Assembly (NCBI RefSeq): GCF_900119165.1
Contig: NZ_FPJG01000006.1
Coordinates: 5,084,001 to 5,148,000, forward strand
Length of the DNA stretch: 64,000 bases
From: Amycolatopsis australiensis
Lineage (GTDB): Bacteria > Actinomycetota > Actinomycetes > Mycobacteriales > Pseudonocardiaceae
Direction: 5' to 3'
Position 1 is the first letter of the stretch. Each line of letters opens with the position of its first letter. Shown piece by piece: positions 37,904 to 45,307 of this stretch. The translations under genes were made by a program, and so were the position numbers. The notes under the pieces are model-generated. The model was not told where the DNA came from. It saw only the letters and a program-made list of their open reading frames with translations, and made no database searches.

Positions 37904-38905
37904 TCAGCCGACGACGATCGTGTGATCCCCGCGCGGCACGAGCTCCCCGATCACCGGGTGGCCCGGCACCTCGCCGGCGACCAGCAGCCCGCCCGACGTC
38001 TGCGCGTCGGCCAGCAGCAGCGCCTCGTCCGCCGAAATCCGGGTCAGGTCCACGTGCGGGCGTACCCAGTCCAGATTGCGCCGCGTGCCGCCGCTGACGT
38101 AGCCGTCGCGCAGCGCCTCGCGCGCGCCCTCGATGTACGGCACCGCCGCCGGATCGATCCGTGCCGTGACACCGCTGGCGCGCGCCAGCTTGTGCAGGTG
38201 GCCGAGCAGGCCGAAGCCGGTGACGTCGGTGGCGCAGACCGCCCCGGCGGCGAGCGCGGCGCGGGCCGCGGTGTCGTTCAACGTCGTCATCACGTCGATC
38301 GCCTGCCCGAACCGCTCGCCGGTGGCCTTGTGCCGCGCGTTCAGCACGCCGATGCCCAGCGGCTTGGTCAACGTCAGCGGCACGCCCGCGCGGCCCGCGT
38401 CGTTGCGCAGCAGCCGCGCGGGGTCCGCGACGCCGGTGACCGCGAGCCCGTACTTGGGCTCCGGGTCGTCGATGCTGTGCCCGCCCGCCAGGTGGCAGCC
38501 CGCCTTGCCGCAGACGTCGAGGCCGCCGCGCAGCACCTCGCCGGCCAGTTCGAACGGCAGCGTCTCGCGCGGCCAGCCGAGCAGGTTGACCGCCACGACC
38601 GGGGTGCCGCCCATGGCGTAGACGTCGGACAGCGCGTTGGCCGCGGCGATGCGTCCCCAGTCGTAGGCGTCGTCGACCACCGGGGTGAAGAAGTCCGTGG
38701 TCGCGATGAGCGCGGTCGAGCCGGAGATCCGGACCGCGGCCGCGTCGTCGCCGGTCTCGAGGCCCACGAGCAGCTCGCCCGCCGGGTCGGCGGGGGACCC
38801 GCCGGTGAGGCCGCGGACGGCCTCCTCCAGCTCGCCGGGCGGGATCTTGCACGCGCAGCCGCCGCCGTGGGCGTACTGGGTCAGTCGGAGGGCCACGGGG
38901 TTCAT
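37904..38905 (-). CDS. selD: Selenide, water dikinase (selenophosphate synthetase)
   Basis: A 333-residue enzyme that makes selenophosphate, the selenium donor for Sec-tRNA, from selenide and ATP. The catalytic region is HGGGCACKIPPG with Cys17 and Lys20; Cys rather than Sec occupies the active site, so it needs no selenium for its own synthesis. Further motifs: GDDAAAVRI, TTDFFTPVVDDAYDWGRIAAANALSDVYAMGG (metal and ATP site) and GGHSIDDPEPKYGL. It is divergent from tRNA-Sec, 46 bases between them. ATG 38905 matches the family N-terminus. Confidence 0.95.
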   Translation of the reverse strand: MNPVALRLTQYAHGGGCACKIPPGELEEAVRGLTGGSPADPAGELLVGLETGDDAAAVRISGSTALIATTDFFTPVVDDAYDWGRIAAANALSDVYAMGGTPVVAVNLLGWPRETLPFELAGEVLRGGLDVCGKAGCHLAGGHSIDDPEPKYGLAVTGVADPARLLRNDAGRAGVPLTLTKPLGIGVLNARHKATGERFGQAIDVMTTLNDTAARAALAAGAVCATDVTGFGLLGHLHKLARASGVTARIDPAAVPYIEGAREALRDGYVSGGTRRNLDWVRPHVDLTRISADEALLLADAQTSGGLLVAGEVPGHPVIGELVPRGDHTIVVG

Positions 38906-38951
38906 CGTGCCCGTCCGCCGCGGACTTGGCAGGATGGCAGCCATGGTGCAG

Positions 38952-39046
38952 GGAGGCGTATCCGGCCTGGTGACCGGCGCGGTCTTCAAAACCGTTGAGC
39001 GGCAGGTCCTGCCGCTGGCGGGTTCGATTCCCGTCCGCCTCCGCCA
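38952..39046 (+). tRNA. selC: tRNA-Sec (anticodon TCA)
   Basis: Acceptor stem GGAGGCG pairs with CGCCTCC; the anticodon loop CTTCAAA holds TCA on a stem GCGGT/ACCGT; the long variable arm has AGCGGCA/TGCCGCT; the T arm is GCGGG-TTCGATT-CCCGT; discriminator G and an encoded CCA complete it. The long acceptor-T helix, long variable arm and UGA-reading anticodon are specific to selenocysteine tRNA. Its last base (A of CCA, 39046) is also the first base of the selA start codon. Confidence 0.95.
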
Positions 39047-40329
39047 TGGGTGACCCGCGCCGCGCGATCCCGCGGACCGACGCGGTCCTGGCCGAGCCGC
39101 GGGTCGCGAAAGCGGCCGGCACGCTCGGGCGTGACCTGGTCAAGGCCGTGGTCACCGACGTCCAGCGGGCCGCGCGGAACGGCGAGATCGCGCCGGGGGA
39201 CGTCGTCGACGCCGTCCTCGCGCGGCTGCCGGCGGGCGCGGCGTCGCTGCGGCCGGTCGTCAACGCGACCGGTGTCGTCGTGCACACCAACCTCGGGCGC
39301 GCGCCGCTGTCCGCGGCCGCGCTGGACGCCCTGGTGGCGGCCGGCGGCGCCACCGACGTCGAGTTCGACCTCGCGACCGGCGAGCGGGCCCGCCGCGGGC
39401 GGGGCGCGCTGGCGGCGCTCGCCGCGGCCGTCCCGGACGCCGGCGGCGTGCACGTGGTCAACAACAACGCGGCCGCCCTGCTGCTGTGCGCGCTCGCACT
39501 GGCGCCGGGCCGGGAGATCGTCGTCAGCCGCGGCGAGCTGGTCGAGATCGGCGACGGCTTCCGCATCCCCGACCTCCTCGCGGCCACCGGCGCCCGGCTG
39601 CGCGAAGTCGGCACCACGAACCGGACGTCGGTCCGCGACTACGCCGACGCCCTCGGCGCGGATACCGGGTTCGTCCTGAAGGTGCACCCGTCCAACTACC
39701 GGGTCACCGGCTTCACGTCGGAAGCGGCGCTCGGCGAGCTGGCCGGCCTCGGCGTCCCCGTGGTCGCCGACATCGGGTCCGGCCTGCTGGCGCCGCACCC
39801 GCTCCTGCCGGCCGAGCCGGACGCCACGACCGCCCTGCGGGCCGGTGCCACGGTCGTCACGGCCAGCGGCGACAAGCTGCTCGGCGGCCCGCAGGCCGGC
39901 CTGCTGCTCGGCGACGCGGACCTCGTCGAACGGCTGCGCCGCCACCCGGCCGCCCGCGCGCTGCGCGTCGACAAGCTCACGCTCGCCGCACTCGAAGCGA
40001 CGCTGCGCGGACCCCGCCCGCCGGTGCGCGCCGCTCTCGACACGCCCGTCGAGAGCCTGCGGCAGCGGGCCCGAGCCCTCGCCCGCAGCCTGGCGGACGT
40101 CGGCGCCGAAGCGGTGTCCTCGGTGGCGGCCGTCGGCGGCGGGGGCGCACCGGGCGTCGAGCTGCCCAGTGCCGCGGTGAGCCTGCCCGCCCGGTACGCG
40201 GCGGCACTGCGGACCGGCGAGCCCGCGGTCGTCGGCCGCGTCGAGCGGGACCGCTGCCTGCTCGACCTGCGGACCGTGCGCCCCGAAGAGGACGCGAAGC
40301 TGCTGGAAGCCGTGCGCCGATGCGGGTGA
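39046..40329 (+). CDS. selA: L-seryl-tRNA(Sec) selenium transferase
   Basis: A 427-residue PLP enzyme that turns Ser-tRNA-Sec into Sec-tRNA-Sec using selenophosphate. The N-terminus MGDPRRAIPRTDAVLAEPRV matches the family and fixes the start at ATG 39046; NATGVVVHTNLGRAPLS is the signature. The PLP lysine is Lys277 in TASGDKLLGGPQAG. No Shine-Dalgarno is visible, because the upstream sequence is the tRNA acceptor stem. Its stop overlaps selB by ten bases. Confidence 0.95.
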   Translation: MGDPRRAIPRTDAVLAEPRVAKAAGTLGRDLVKAVVTDVQRAARNGEIAPGDVVDAVLARLPAGAASLRPVVNATGVVVHTNLGRAPLSAAALDALVAAGGATDVEFDLATGERARRGRGALAALAAAVPDAGGVHVVNNNAAALLLCALALAPGREIVVSRGELVEIGDGFRIPDLLAATGARLREVGTTNRTSVRDYADALGADTGFVLKVHPSNYRVTGFTSEAALGELAGLGVPVVADIGSGLLAPHPLLPAEPDATTALRAGATVVTASGDKLLGGPQAGLLLGDADLVERLRRHPAARALRVDKLTLAALEATLRGPRPPVRAALDTPVESLRQRARALARSLADVGAEAVSSVAAVGGGGAPGVELPSAAVSLPARYAAALRTGEPAVVGRVERDRCLLDLRTVRPEEDAKLLEAVRRCG

Positions 40330-42041
40330 TCGTCACGGCCGGGCACGTCGACCACGGGAAGTCGACGCTGGTGCGCCGGCTGACCGGGATGGAACCGGAC
40401 CGGTGGGCCGAGGAACGGCGCCGCGGCCTCACCATCGACCTCGGCTTCGCCTGGACCCGGATCGGCGGCGAGGACGTCGCGTTCGTCGACGTGCCGGGCC
40501 ACGAACGGTTCGTGCCGAACATGCTGGCCGGCGCCGGGCCGGCCCCGGCGGTGCTGTTCGTGGTCGCCGCGGACGAGGGCTGGATGCCGCAGTCGGCCGA
40601 GCACCTCGCCGCGCTCGACGCGTTCGGCGTCTCCCGCGGCCTGCTGGTCGTCACCAAGGCCGACCGCGCCGACCCGGGCGCCGCGACGGAGGCCGCCCGC
40701 CACGAGATCGCCCGCACGTCGCTGGGCGCGGTGCCGAGCGTGGCCGTCAGCGCCGCCACGGGCGCGGGGCTCGACGAGCTGCGCGCGGCGATCTCGGCGC
40801 TGACCGGCGGGCTGCCGCCACCCGATCCGGACGCCGACGTCCGGCTGTGGATCGACCGGGCGTTCACCGTGTCCGGGGCGGGCACGGTCGTCACGGGCAC
40901 CTTGGCCGCGGGTACCGTCGCGGTCGGCGACGAGCTGCTGCTGGGCCGGACGCGGGTGAAGGTCCGCGGCCTGCAGGCGCTCGGCGAGCCCCGCGACCGG
41001 GTCGCGGCCGTGGCGCGGGTGGCGGTCAACCTGCGCGGCACCGCGCGTGGCGACACCGGCCGCGGTGACGTCCTGCTGACGCCGGGCCGGTGGCTGACCA
41101 CGGCCGAGTTCGACGTCCGGCTGCGCGGCGCGGCCGCCGCGGACCTGCACCGGAACCTGGTGCTGCACTTCGGGACCGCCGCCCTGCCGGTGCGCGTCCG
41201 TCCACTGGGGACGGACACCGCGCGGCTCACGACGGCCACCGCGCTGCCGCTGCGCGCCGGGGACCGCGGCCTGGTGCGCGACCCCGGCGAGCACCGGATC
41301 GCCGCGGGGTTCGACGTGCTCGACGTCCGGCCGCCGCCGTTGACCCGGCGCGGGGCGGCCCGCGCCAGGGCCGCCGAGCTGGCCGGCCCCGATCTCGCCG
41401 GAACCTTCCTGCGCCGCACCGGGTTCGTGCGGGCCGCGGACCTGGCGGCGATGGGCCTGCCGGAGACCGGGCAGCGGGTGGGGGAGTGGCTGGCCGACCC
41501 CGCCCGGCTCGCCGGGCTGCGCGCCGAGGCCGTGGCGCTCGTCGGGTCCTGGGACGCCGTCTCCGCCGGGATGCCGGTGGAAGCGCTGCGCCGGCGGCTC
41601 GGGCTGCCCGCGCCGGAGCTGGTCGCGCCGCTGCTGGCGGGCACCGGCCTGGACGTGGCGGGTGGTCTCGTGCGCCGTCCGGGCGGGCTGGCCCCGGCGG
41701 TGGAGAAGGCGCTGGAGACCGTGGAAGAGGCGCTCGCCGAGCACCCCTTCCGCGCGCCGGAGGCGGACGAGCTGCGGGCGCTGGGACTGGGCCGGCGCGA
41801 GCTGGCGGCGGCCGTCCGCCTCGGCAGGCTCACGGCGGTCGCCGACGGTGTCGTACTGGGACCGGACGCCGAAGAGCGGGCCGTGGCGCGGCTGCGCCGG
41901 CTGCCCCAGCCGTTCACCGTGTCGGCCGCGCGGCGGGCGCTGGACAGCACCCGCCGGGTGATGATCCCGTTGCTGGAACGCCTCGACGCGGCCGGGCGCA
42001 CCGAACCGCTCGGCGACGGGACGCGCCGGACGCGTGGTTAG
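40320..42041 (+). CDS. selB: Selenocysteine-specific translation elongation factor
   Basis: A 573-residue GTPase that brings Sec-tRNA to UGA codons carrying a SECIS hairpin. The EF-Tu-like part has the P-loop GHVDHGKST (residues 8-16), the switch FVDVPGHERFVPNM and VVTKAD. Two beta-barrels follow, then the C-terminal winged helices (ending RRALDSTRRVMIPLLERLDAAGRTEPLGDGTRRTR) that bind the SECIS. It overlaps selA by ten bases and lies 38 bases before the formate dehydrogenase gene. Confidence 0.95.
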   Translation: MRVIVTAGHVDHGKSTLVRRLTGMEPDRWAEERRRGLTIDLGFAWTRIGGEDVAFVDVPGHERFVPNMLAGAGPAPAVLFVVAADEGWMPQSAEHLAALDAFGVSRGLLVVTKADRADPGAATEAARHEIARTSLGAVPSVAVSAATGAGLDELRAAISALTGGLPPPDPDADVRLWIDRAFTVSGAGTVVTGTLAAGTVAVGDELLLGRTRVKVRGLQALGEPRDRVAAVARVAVNLRGTARGDTGRGDVLLTPGRWLTTAEFDVRLRGAAAADLHRNLVLHFGTAALPVRVRPLGTDTARLTTATALPLRAGDRGLVRDPGEHRIAAGFDVLDVRPPPLTRRGAARARAAELAGPDLAGTFLRRTGFVRAADLAAMGLPETGQRVGEWLADPARLAGLRAEAVALVGSWDAVSAGMPVEALRRRLGLPAPELVAPLLAGTGLDVAGGLVRRPGGLAPAVEKALETVEEALAEHPFRAPEADELRALGLGRRELAAAVRLGRLTAVADGVVLGPDAEERAVARLRRLPQPFTVSAARRALDSTRRVMIPLLERLDAAGRTEPLGDGTRRTRG

Positions 42042-42060: not shown

Positions 42061-42079
42061 CGGTACTACCGTGCCAAGC

Positions 42080-45000
42080 ATGGGTGTACGGCGGTGGATC
42101 GAAGGCTGGCCGGTGTACCGGCAGCTGACCGGTCCGGACCGGACAGGGCGCGCCTCCGCCGTCAAATCGGACGGGTCGGAGAAATGGCACGCGCGCACCG
42201 AGGACGCCGACAAGGTCGTCCCGTCCGTGTGCCCCTACTGCGCCGTCGGCTGCGGCCAGAAGGTCTACGTCAAGGACGGCCGCGTCACCCAGATCGAGGG
42301 TGACCCCGACTCGCCGATCTCGCGTGGCAGGCTCTGCCCGAAGGGCTCGGCCAGCAAGCAGCTCGTGACCAGCCCGAGCCGCGTCACCGAAGTCCTCTAC
42401 CGCCGCCCGTACGGCACCGACTGGGAGCGCCTGCCCCTCGACAAGGCGATGGACATGATCGCCGACCGGGTCCTCAAGACCCGCGCCGAGACGTGGCAGG
42501 ACGCCGACGACCAGGGTCGCAAGCTGAACCGCACGCTCGGCTTCGCCAGCCTGGGCGGCGCGACGTTGGACAACGAAGAGAACTACCTGATGAAGAAGCT
42601 GTACACCGCGCTCGGCGCGATACAGATCGAAAACCAGGCCCGTATTTGACACTCCGCCACGGTTCCCGGTCTGGGGACCTCCTTCGGTCGTGGGGGCGCC
42701 ACGACGTTCCAGCAGGACCTCGCCAACGCCGACTGCATCGTCATCCAGGGCTCGAACATGGCCGAGTGTCACCCGGTCGGGTTCCAGTGGGTGATGGAGG
42801 CGAAGGCCCGCGGCGCGAAGATCATCCACGTCGACCCGCGGTTCACCCGCACCAGCGCGGTCTCGCACGTCCACGCGGCGTTGCGGGCCGGGACGGACAT
42901 CGCGTTCCTCGGCGGCCTGATCAACTACGTGCTGGGCAACGAGAAGGACTTCCGCGAGTACGTGCTGGCCTACACGAACGCCGCCGCGATCCTGCGTGAG
43001 GACTTCGCCGACACCGAAGACCTCGACGGGCTGTTCTCCGGCTACGACCCCGAGCGGCGCCAGTACGACATGGCGTCCTGGGAATACGAGGGCGCGCCGA
43101 CGGTGCCCGCGTCCGGGTCGGCCGACCCGGAGCAGCCGGGCGAGCCGGGCTCGGAGCACCACCACGGCGGCGAGGGCCACCAGAGCACGGCCCGGGCCGA
43201 CACCTACGGCAGCGGTGGGGCGGCGGTCGGCGGCAAGCCGAAGACCGACGAGACGCTGCAGCACCCGCGGTGCGTGTACCAGGTGCTGAAGCGCCACTTC
43301 GCGCGCTACACGCCCGAGCTGGTCGCCGACGTCTGCGGCCTGCCGGTGGCGCAGTTCCACGAGATCGCCGAGGCGATCACGGCGAACTCGGGCCGCGACC
43401 GGACGACGGCGTGGGTGTACTCGGTGGGCTGGACCCAGCACACCGTCGGCGCGCAGTACATCCGCACCGCGTCGATCCTGCAGACCCTGCTCGGCAACAT
43501 CGGCCGCCCCGGCGGCGGCATCCTCGCGCTGCGCGGCCACGCCAGCATCCAGGGCTCCACCGACATCCCGACGCTGTTCAACCTGCTGCCCGGCTACATC
43601 CCGATGCCGCACGCACACCAGCACCAGAGCCTCGACGAGTTCGTCGCCGCGGACGCGGGCAAGACCGGCTTCTGGGGCAACATGCGCTCGTACACGGTCA
43701 GCCTGCTCAAGTCCTACTGGGGCGACTCGGCCCGGCCGGACAACGACTTCCGGTTCGACTACCTGCCGCGGCTCACCGGCGACCACGGCACGTACGCGAC
43801 CGTGCAGCAGCAGATCGCGGGCGAGTGCAAGGGCTACTTCCTGGTCGGCGAGAACCCGGCGGTCGGCTCGGCCAACGGCAAGTTCCAGCGGCTCGGCCTG
43901 GGCAACCTCGACTGGCTCGTCGTGCGCGACCTGCAGCTGATCGAGAGCGCGACGTTCTGGAAGGACGGCCCGGAGATCGAAACCGGCGAGCTGAAGCCGG
44001 AGGAGATCGGCACCGAGGTCTTCTTCCTGCCCGCCGCCGCGCACACCGAGAAGGACGGCAGCTTCACCAACACCCAGCGGCTCCTGCAGTGGCACCACAA
44101 GGCCGTCGAGCCGCCCGGTGACGCCCGCAGCGAGCTCTGGTTCTACTACCACCTTGGCCGGCTCATCCGCGAGCGGATCGGCGACGACCCGCGCGACGCG
44201 CCGATCCGCGACCTCACCTGGAGCTACCCGACCGAGGGCCCGACCGGCGACCCCAGCGCGGAGTCCGTGCTCGCGGAGATCAACGGCCACGGCCCGGACG
44301 GCCCGCTCTCGGCGTACACGCAGCTGAAGGACGACGGCTCGACCGCCTGCGGCTGCTGGATCTACTGCGGTGTCCGCGCGGACGGCAAGAACCACGCGGC
44401 GAACCGGCAGCCCGGCCCCGAACAGGACTGGGTCGCGGCGGGCTGGGCCTGGGCGTGGCCGGCGAACCGCCGGATCCTCTACAACCGCGCGTCGGCCGAC
44501 CCGGACGGCAAGCCGTGGAGCGAGCGGAAGAAGCTGCTCAGCTGGGACGCCGGACAGGGCAAGTGGGTCGGCCCGGACGTGCCGGACTTCGAGCCGGCGA
44601 AGGCACCGGACTACGAGCCGCCGGAGGGCGCGAAGGCACAGGACGCGCTGAGCGGGCGGGACCCGTTCATCATGCAGACCGACGGCAAGGCCTGGCTCTA
44701 CGTCCCGGCCGGGCTGGCCGACGGCCCGCTGCCCGCGCACTACGAGCCGTTCGAAAGCCCGGTCGGCAACGCGCTCTACGGGCAGCAGGTGTCACCGACG
44801 CGGCAGACGCTGGAGAGCCCGGCGAACCCGTACAACCCGTCCCGCAGCGAGGTCTACCCGTACGTGTTCACCACCTACCGGCTGACCGAGCACCACACCG
44901 CGGGCGGGATGAGCCGGACGCTGCCGTACCTGTCGGAGCTGCAGCCGGAGTTCTTCTGCGAGGTGTCGCCGGCGCTGGCCGCCGAACGCGGCCTCGAGAA

Positions 45001-45307
45001 CGGCGGCTGGGCGACGATCGTCTCGGCGCGCACGGCGATCGAGGCCCGCGTGCTGGTGACCGACCGCGTGAAGCCGCTGAAGGTCCGCGGCCGGACGATC
45101 CACCAGATCGGCCTGCCCTACCACTGGGGCACGAACGGCCTGTCGCGCGGCGACGCGGCCAACGACCTGCTGTCGATCGTGATGGACCCGAACGTGCACA
45201 TCCAGGAGGCCAAGGCGGCCACCTGCGACATCCGGCCGGGACGGCGGCCGCGCGGCGCCGCGCTGCCGGCCATGGTCGAGGAGTACCGGAGGCGAGCCGA
45301 TGGCTGA
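42080..45307 (+). CDS. fdnG: Formate dehydrogenase catalytic subunit, selenoprotein (UGA at 42647-42649 = Sec190)
   Basis: A 1,075-residue molybdo- or tungsto-bis-MGD enzyme oxidising formate to CO2. Read through the single in-frame TGA, the sequence runs ENQARI-Sec-HSATVPGLG, exactly the active-site context of selenocysteine formate dehydrogenases. The N-terminal [4Fe-4S] motif is Cys51, Cys54, Cys58 and Cys86 (CPYCAVGC, then RLCPKG). A low-complexity His/Gly/Glu linker lies about residues 345-385, and the C-terminal molydopterin-dinucleotide domain closes the protein. No Tat signal is seen: MGVRRW lacks a hydrophobic stretch, so the catalytic side is probably cytoplasmic. Its stop overlaps the next start by eight bases. 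Confidence 0.95.
42647..42685 (+). promoter_or_regulatory. Bacterial SECIS element with UGA Sec codon
   Basis: Eleven bases after the TGA begins a 7-bp hairpin, GGTTCCC-GGTCT-GGGGACC (42661-42679). The five-base apical loop GGTCU is the one SelB recognises in E. coli fdhF, and the 11-base distance equals that of fdhF as I remember it. Confidence 0.85.

Follow-up and report, generated by a model that had tools for sequence, protein, structure and literature searches.

One base shared between the tRNA-Sec gene and the selA start codon in Amycolatopsis: a possible link between tRNA maturation and selA translation

In animal mitochondria, tRNA genes directly abut the open reading frames, and excision of the tRNAs leaves leaderless mRNAs, an arrangement called tRNA punctuation. 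Another kind of arrangement is found in Alphaproteobacteria, where selC, the gene for tRNA-Sec, is nested in selB, and where the available text of the original report proposes that processing is repressive (Mukai 2021, PMC8124441). Since such selC/selB overlaps are already published, the overlap described here is not a new category. The same source mentions a termite-gut lineage in which tRNA-Sec ends at position -2 of the selA start, and this remark was the sole find of a literature search for a selC-selA overlap. Where the tRNA-Sec of a genome is unusual, selC is also known to be a close neighbour of selA and selB, as stated in the accessible part of that study (PMC5330540). In a 2026 review, as far as its text is available, the selB case alone appears (PMC13188914). 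No report of the Amycolatopsis selC-selA junction was present in the literature searched, subscription papers being outside its scope.

The window is the whole analysed stretch of 64,000 nucleotides from Amycolatopsis australiensis. As shown in Table 1, it carries selC, selA and selB on one strand, with selD divergent across a gap of 46 bases (38906-38951). ARAGORN identifies the tRNA-Sec with a TCA anticodon, and the RF01852 model matches 38952-39042 with 81.1 bits against a gathering score of 47. Thus, both the family score and the UCA anticodon mark the gene as tRNA-Sec, and it is the single match above the family cut-off in the whole 9.3 Mb genome. SelA matches the equivalog model TIGR00474 with 425.8 bits (cut-off 267.9) over residues 6-424, which is near full length. 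The scores of SelB (TIGR00475, 252.6 bits against 242.25) and SelD (TIGR00476, 394.7 bits against 125) also exceed their cut-offs. The selA ATG occupies 39046-39048 and has exactly one base in common with selC. ARAGORN, RF01852 and the letters themselves thereby confirm the shared A of the preliminary description. The entire tRNA does not lie inside a reading frame, as it does in nested selC; base 39046 alone is common.

Table 1. Features of the selD-selC-selA-selB locus, in positions of the window.
Feature	Position	Strand	Basis
selC, tRNA-Sec gene with encoded CCA	38952-39046	+	ARAGORN; RF01852
CCA end of tRNA-Sec	39044-39046	+	sequence; discriminator is G39043
base common to the tRNA CCA (its A) and the selA ATG (its A)	39046	+	sequence
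selA, L-seryl-tRNA(Sec) selenium transferase, 427 aa	39046-40329	+	translation; TIGR00474
selB	40320-42041	+	overlaps final 10 bases of selA; TIGR00475
selD	37904-38905	-	divergent from selC; TIGR00476
candidate 3' maturation cut between the two Cs	39044-39045	+	suggested by S. coelicolor and P. acnes maps
conserved TTGGCAGGATG, putative promoter of selC-selA-selB	38926-38936	+	genus alignment; function putative

Downstream of selB, a reading frame within 42062-45307, named formate-dehydrogenase-like by resemblance, contains an in-frame TGA at 42647-42649 (+), which is probably a selenocysteine codon. An Rfam SECIS_3 match spans this TGA (42644-42705; 27.6 bits, below the gathering score of 63; E 1.5e-4), and folding of 42645-42700 gives no greater stability than folding of shuffled sequences.

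The preliminary description had suggested that the junction be compared in related genomes. Among 80 Amycolatopsis genomes, 44 possess tRNA-Sec, and all of their 45 loci were read. The same base is common to tRNA-Sec and selA in 33 of them. A 12-base spacer separates the two genes in seven loci, and in four more homology indicates a longer one (17, 40, 40 and 41 bases). The remaining locus, L132 of genome G318, shows a partial tandem duplication: the copy at the overlap stops after codon 44, and a selA of 427 residues begins 127 bases downstream of the overlap position. As this close relative broke the overlap and yet keeps a 427-residue selA, the arrangement is dispensable. In the anticodon loop of the L132 tRNA-Sec, moreover, an A is replaced by a C. 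Another genome, G322, has two tRNA-Sec loci (L125 and L165) with identical SelA, around 226 kb apart on one contig.

Outside the genus, 85 tRNA-Sec loci were sampled, with some genomes represented twice, from two collections. The set is uneven: it draws on the loci of 30 matches among 202 family genomes with tRNA-Sec, and 80 SelA relatives kept among the 361 matches listed. SelA lies on the same strand as tRNA-Sec in 79 of the 85, and in 64 of these 79 the homologous selA start is at most 80 bases from the tRNA. A selC placed shortly before selA is, thus, usual among the sampled actinobacterial loci. The shared base was found in none of the 79, and among the loci sampled it is seen in Amycolatopsis only. 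The letters CCATG do follow the tRNA in eight of the 79 (G400 and G597 being counted twice), none of them being a homology-supported selA start. Because CCATG and the homologous selA start coincide in 33 of the 45 genus loci, the junction is inherited and beyond chance. Scans for the overlap pattern in an order sample of 397 genomes and a phylum sample of 396 gave four matches outside the genus (three genomes in the former, one in the latter). None is a selA start, and for two of the four there is no SelA in the read stretch. In a mycobacterial MAG (L071), an in-frame ATG stands at the overlap position, and the homologous start is 27 bases downstream. Within the window's own genome, a pattern for tRNA-like sequences with CCATG at their end, defined for the usual T loop only, gave six matches against one for the reversed control pattern; selC alone of the six was called a tRNA, and the same overlap at other tRNAs was rejected.

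The start codon of selA was examined across the 33 overlap loci, where the ATG is invariant. Variation in codons 3-12 is almost only synonymous, with residue 7 differing in two loci and residue 8 in two; codon 2, by contrast, may encode Pro, Gly, Ala or Ser. Over codons 3-30, third positions are variable in 26 of 28 cases and first and second positions in 27 of 56. Among the 79 non-genus loci, alignment to the window's SelA begins at residue 1 in 48 and at residue 3 in 30, and many relatives with a spacer begin M/V-x-D-P-R-R. As far as the sequence tells, selA starts at the ATG at 39046. The earlier opinion that this start is probably right is, therefore, upheld by homology, by the invariant ATG and by the synonymous variation.

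A consensus scan of 38850-39150 gave no promoter-like or terminator-like site, and on this ground a promoter of selA's own and a terminator at the boundary of the two genes were set aside. Reading of the sequence also gave no TANNNT-like hexamer positioned for a transcription start at 39044-39046. Thus, there is no sign of a separate selA transcript, and, with no spacer between the genes, selA should be transcribed through the tRNA. Upstream of selC, TTGGCAGGATG is invariant at nine of its 11 positions and nearly so at the other two in an alignment of 13 genus sequences. It includes a -10-like CAGGAT at 38930-38935, and no consensus sigma-70 site was found. It is perhaps the tRNA promoter, possibly bidirectional in the selD/selC gap.

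At the overlap loci, the pairing energy between bases -18 to -4 and the anti-Shine-Dalgarno oligonucleotide, which we take to be the actinobacterial 16S end, is +0.7 kcal/mol. This agrees with the earlier claim that selA has no Shine-Dalgarno site, a feature expected of leaderless or near-leaderless genes. The 18 bases before the ATG are identical in all 33 overlap loci, so the lack counts as one observation and not as 33. Of the other unique selA starts, 44 of 84 reach -6 kcal/mol or better, a cut-off of our own choice. Pairing is weaker than this in 12 of the 20 rows with a spacer of 0-15 bases, a class in which two starts (L096 and L114) were misplaced by the script. Since the start is well supported and Shine-Dalgarno pairing is absent, it is probable that transcription of selA passes through the tRNA and that its translation begins unaided by a Shine-Dalgarno site. 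Seven Mycobacterium loci (L063, L064, L066, L079, L081, L087 and L095) pair weakly, from -2.2 to -2.5 kcal/mol, and keep tRNA-Sec and selA 18 bases apart; in these, too, initiation may be coupled to processing.

In the uncut RNA, the predicted fold places the AUG directly after the acceptor stem, which would be expected to hinder initiation on that RNA. The stability of the fold of 38952-39106 does not clearly exceed that of shuffles (z -1.41), of which 21 of 200 are at least as stable. What becomes of the transcript depends on the site of the 3' cut. RNase BN of E. coli reportedly does not remove CCA. The Amycolatopsis genome encodes an RNase Z (NF000805, 520.6 bits against a cut-off of 416; TIGR02651, 278, under the cut-off of 293) and an actinobacterial CCA-adding enzyme (TIGR02692, 800.4-801.5 bits against 438.8). 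In the available text on S. coelicolor, most CCA-encoding tRNAs are cut between the Cs (PMC4681348). The corresponding text on P. acnes gives examples of cuts between the Cs of an encoded CCA, and also of cuts that fall a few bases past such a CCA; its authors could not name a nuclease for the former (PMC3848588). At the Amycolatopsis junction, a cut of the latter kind would destroy the selA start. Going by the letters of the junction, a cut after the discriminator would keep the AUG with a two-base leader and a cut between the Cs with a one-base leader. The CCA-adding enzyme could then finish the tRNA, and both products could come from one transcript. An ATG or GTG right at the 5' end is sufficient for initiation in mycobacteria, and for M. 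tuberculosis the accessible text counts detected N-termini in 4 of 558 cases where the start codon lay one to four bases further in and in 51 of 1098 where it stood at the very end (PMC4633059). From the fewer N-termini in the former group, a leader of one or two bases may be poor, and the selA mRNA made by the cut would perhaps be weakly translated.

The reading that we favour, with a probability of around 0.5, is a processing-coupled, near-leaderless translation of selA. What we infer for it is that the genes are co-transcribed, where the cut falls, that the released RNA is translated, and whatever would follow for regulation. The downstream cuts of P. acnes, the unnamed nuclease there and the reported behaviour of E. 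coli RNase BN speak against it, as does the break of the overlap in G318. The genes selC, selA and selB would form one transcription unit, whose promoter would be that of the tRNA, and the tRNA-Sec part would fold within the transcript. RNase P, which cuts the 5' ends of tRNAs, would make the 5' cut. The 3' cut would fall between the two Cs of CCA or one base earlier, just behind the discriminator, and release a near-leaderless selA-selB mRNA beginning 5'-CAUG or 5'-CCAUG. The position between the Cs is suggested because the S. coelicolor and P. acnes maps show such cuts, and it would leave 5'-C-AUG-GGU on the selA mRNA. Actinobacterial ribosomes would start on the released mRNA without a Shine-Dalgarno site, while the CCA-adding enzyme would complete the tRNA end. 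The output of SelA would then depend on the maturation of tRNA-Sec instead of competing with it.

The preliminary description advocated that a transcript could yield either mature tRNA or selA mRNA, not both, and saw in this a possible feedback between the tRNA and the enzyme. In that rather unlikely scenario, the cut falls after CCA or downstream of it, each transcript gives tRNA-Sec or a selA mRNA, and more processing means less SelA. The A common to CCA and ATG fits it, as do the downstream cuts of P. acnes (PMC3848588), and the available text on nested selC has a similar model of ‘alternatives’ (PMC8124441). It stands if the cut lies after the A or further down; the exclusion is not forced, and the cuts between the Cs, which most CCA-encoding tRNAs of S. 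coelicolor undergo and which also occur in P. acnes, weaken it. SelA would, moreover, have to be made from the uncut RNA, with its AUG right behind the acceptor stem and no Shine-Dalgarno site. A related and likewise unlikely view, held with slightly less conviction, is that selA starts independently of Shine-Dalgarno pairing on the uncut or partly unfolded transcript, with tRNA processing irrelevant. The often weak pairing of the relatives with short spacers (the 12 of 20 rows above) is in line with it, and such initiation may thus predate the overlap; in the overlap form, however, two Cs alone separate the discriminator from the AUG. It is most improbable that selA has a transcription start of its own within the tRNA gene or that its translation begins elsewhere. 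The window's genome does have an in-frame TTG at 38995, and such a TTG occurs in 15 of the 33 overlap loci in total. In 14 of them, the window's genome included, the TTG is followed upstream by an in-frame TGA within the tRNA, while L116 has the TTG and no stop there. The other 18 have no ATG, GTG or TTG between the selA ATG and the TGA within the tRNA, which rules out the TTG as the internal start. The TGA lies upstream of the TTG position in 32 of the 33, and the promoter scan gave no consensus site.

Neutral compaction is a serious alternative, and its chances are about even: a small deletion would have joined the tRNA and the start codon, and constraints on both tRNA and protein would then have locked the junction, with no regulatory meaning. 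As it is compatible with any of the mechanisms, the odds of the readings do not sum to one. On a SelA tree of 55 rows (the 45 genus loci and ten others of our selection), which is a tree of the gene, the overlap changes four times, at least three of these being forced by well supported branches, with gains and losses not distinguished. A single clade of all overlap rows with L132 is rejected (p-AU 2.9e-05), and one of the core rows with L132, leaving out L121 and L126, is borderline (p 0.045). An overlap gained or lost several times speaks for compaction, as do its loss in G318 and the related lineages with the 12-base spacer. On the other hand, CC and ATG are kept in 33 of 33 loci, although an encoded CCA is dispensable elsewhere (missing in 18 of the 85 non-genus loci) and other selA genes often begin with GTG (36 of 84). 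This argument from conservation is weak because the 33 loci are related. Regulation by the junction is hypothetical. Autoregulation is a doubtful further idea: SelA would bind the tRNA moiety of its own precursor, blocking both the cut and ribosome access, and cutting would free tRNA-Sec and the mRNA. The junction would then be a built-in operator through which free SelA shuts off its own mRNA. G73 of the tRNA-Sec lies two bases before the selA start codon, and the accessible text on bacterial SelA describes contacts of its C-terminal region with G1 and G73 (PMC5330540).

Should processing-coupled translation hold, with the cut upstream of the AUG, the maturation of a tRNA would make the mRNA of the enzyme acting on that very tRNA, and Sec synthase would be tied to the supply of tRNA-Sec in a bacterium. 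The species with and without the overlap would offer a clean natural test of the cut position in CCA-encoding actinobacterial tRNAs, as well as a natural test of leaderless translation from a processed 5' end.

Among the known systems, mitochondrial tRNA punctuation resembles this locus in that selC directly abuts selA with no spacer. It differs in that the present case is a bacterial operon with an encoded CCA in a 9.3 Mb genome, where cleavage is presumed. The actinobacterial leaderless mRNAs, as the available texts describe them, share the lack of a Shine-Dalgarno site and a start codon that should lie at the 5' end or right beside it (PMC4633059, PMC4681348, PMC3848588). Their 5' ends are transcription starts, whereas that of selA would come from tRNA processing. 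As in the selC nested in selB, a tRNA-Sec gene overlaps a same-strand reading frame of the Sec machinery, and there, too, the available text proposes that processing decides the fate of the mRNA. There, however, the 3' end of selB contains the tRNA in full, while in Amycolatopsis a single base is common to the tRNA and the 5' end of selA; and where repression is proposed for the former, the cut at the Amycolatopsis junction may free a translatable mRNA.
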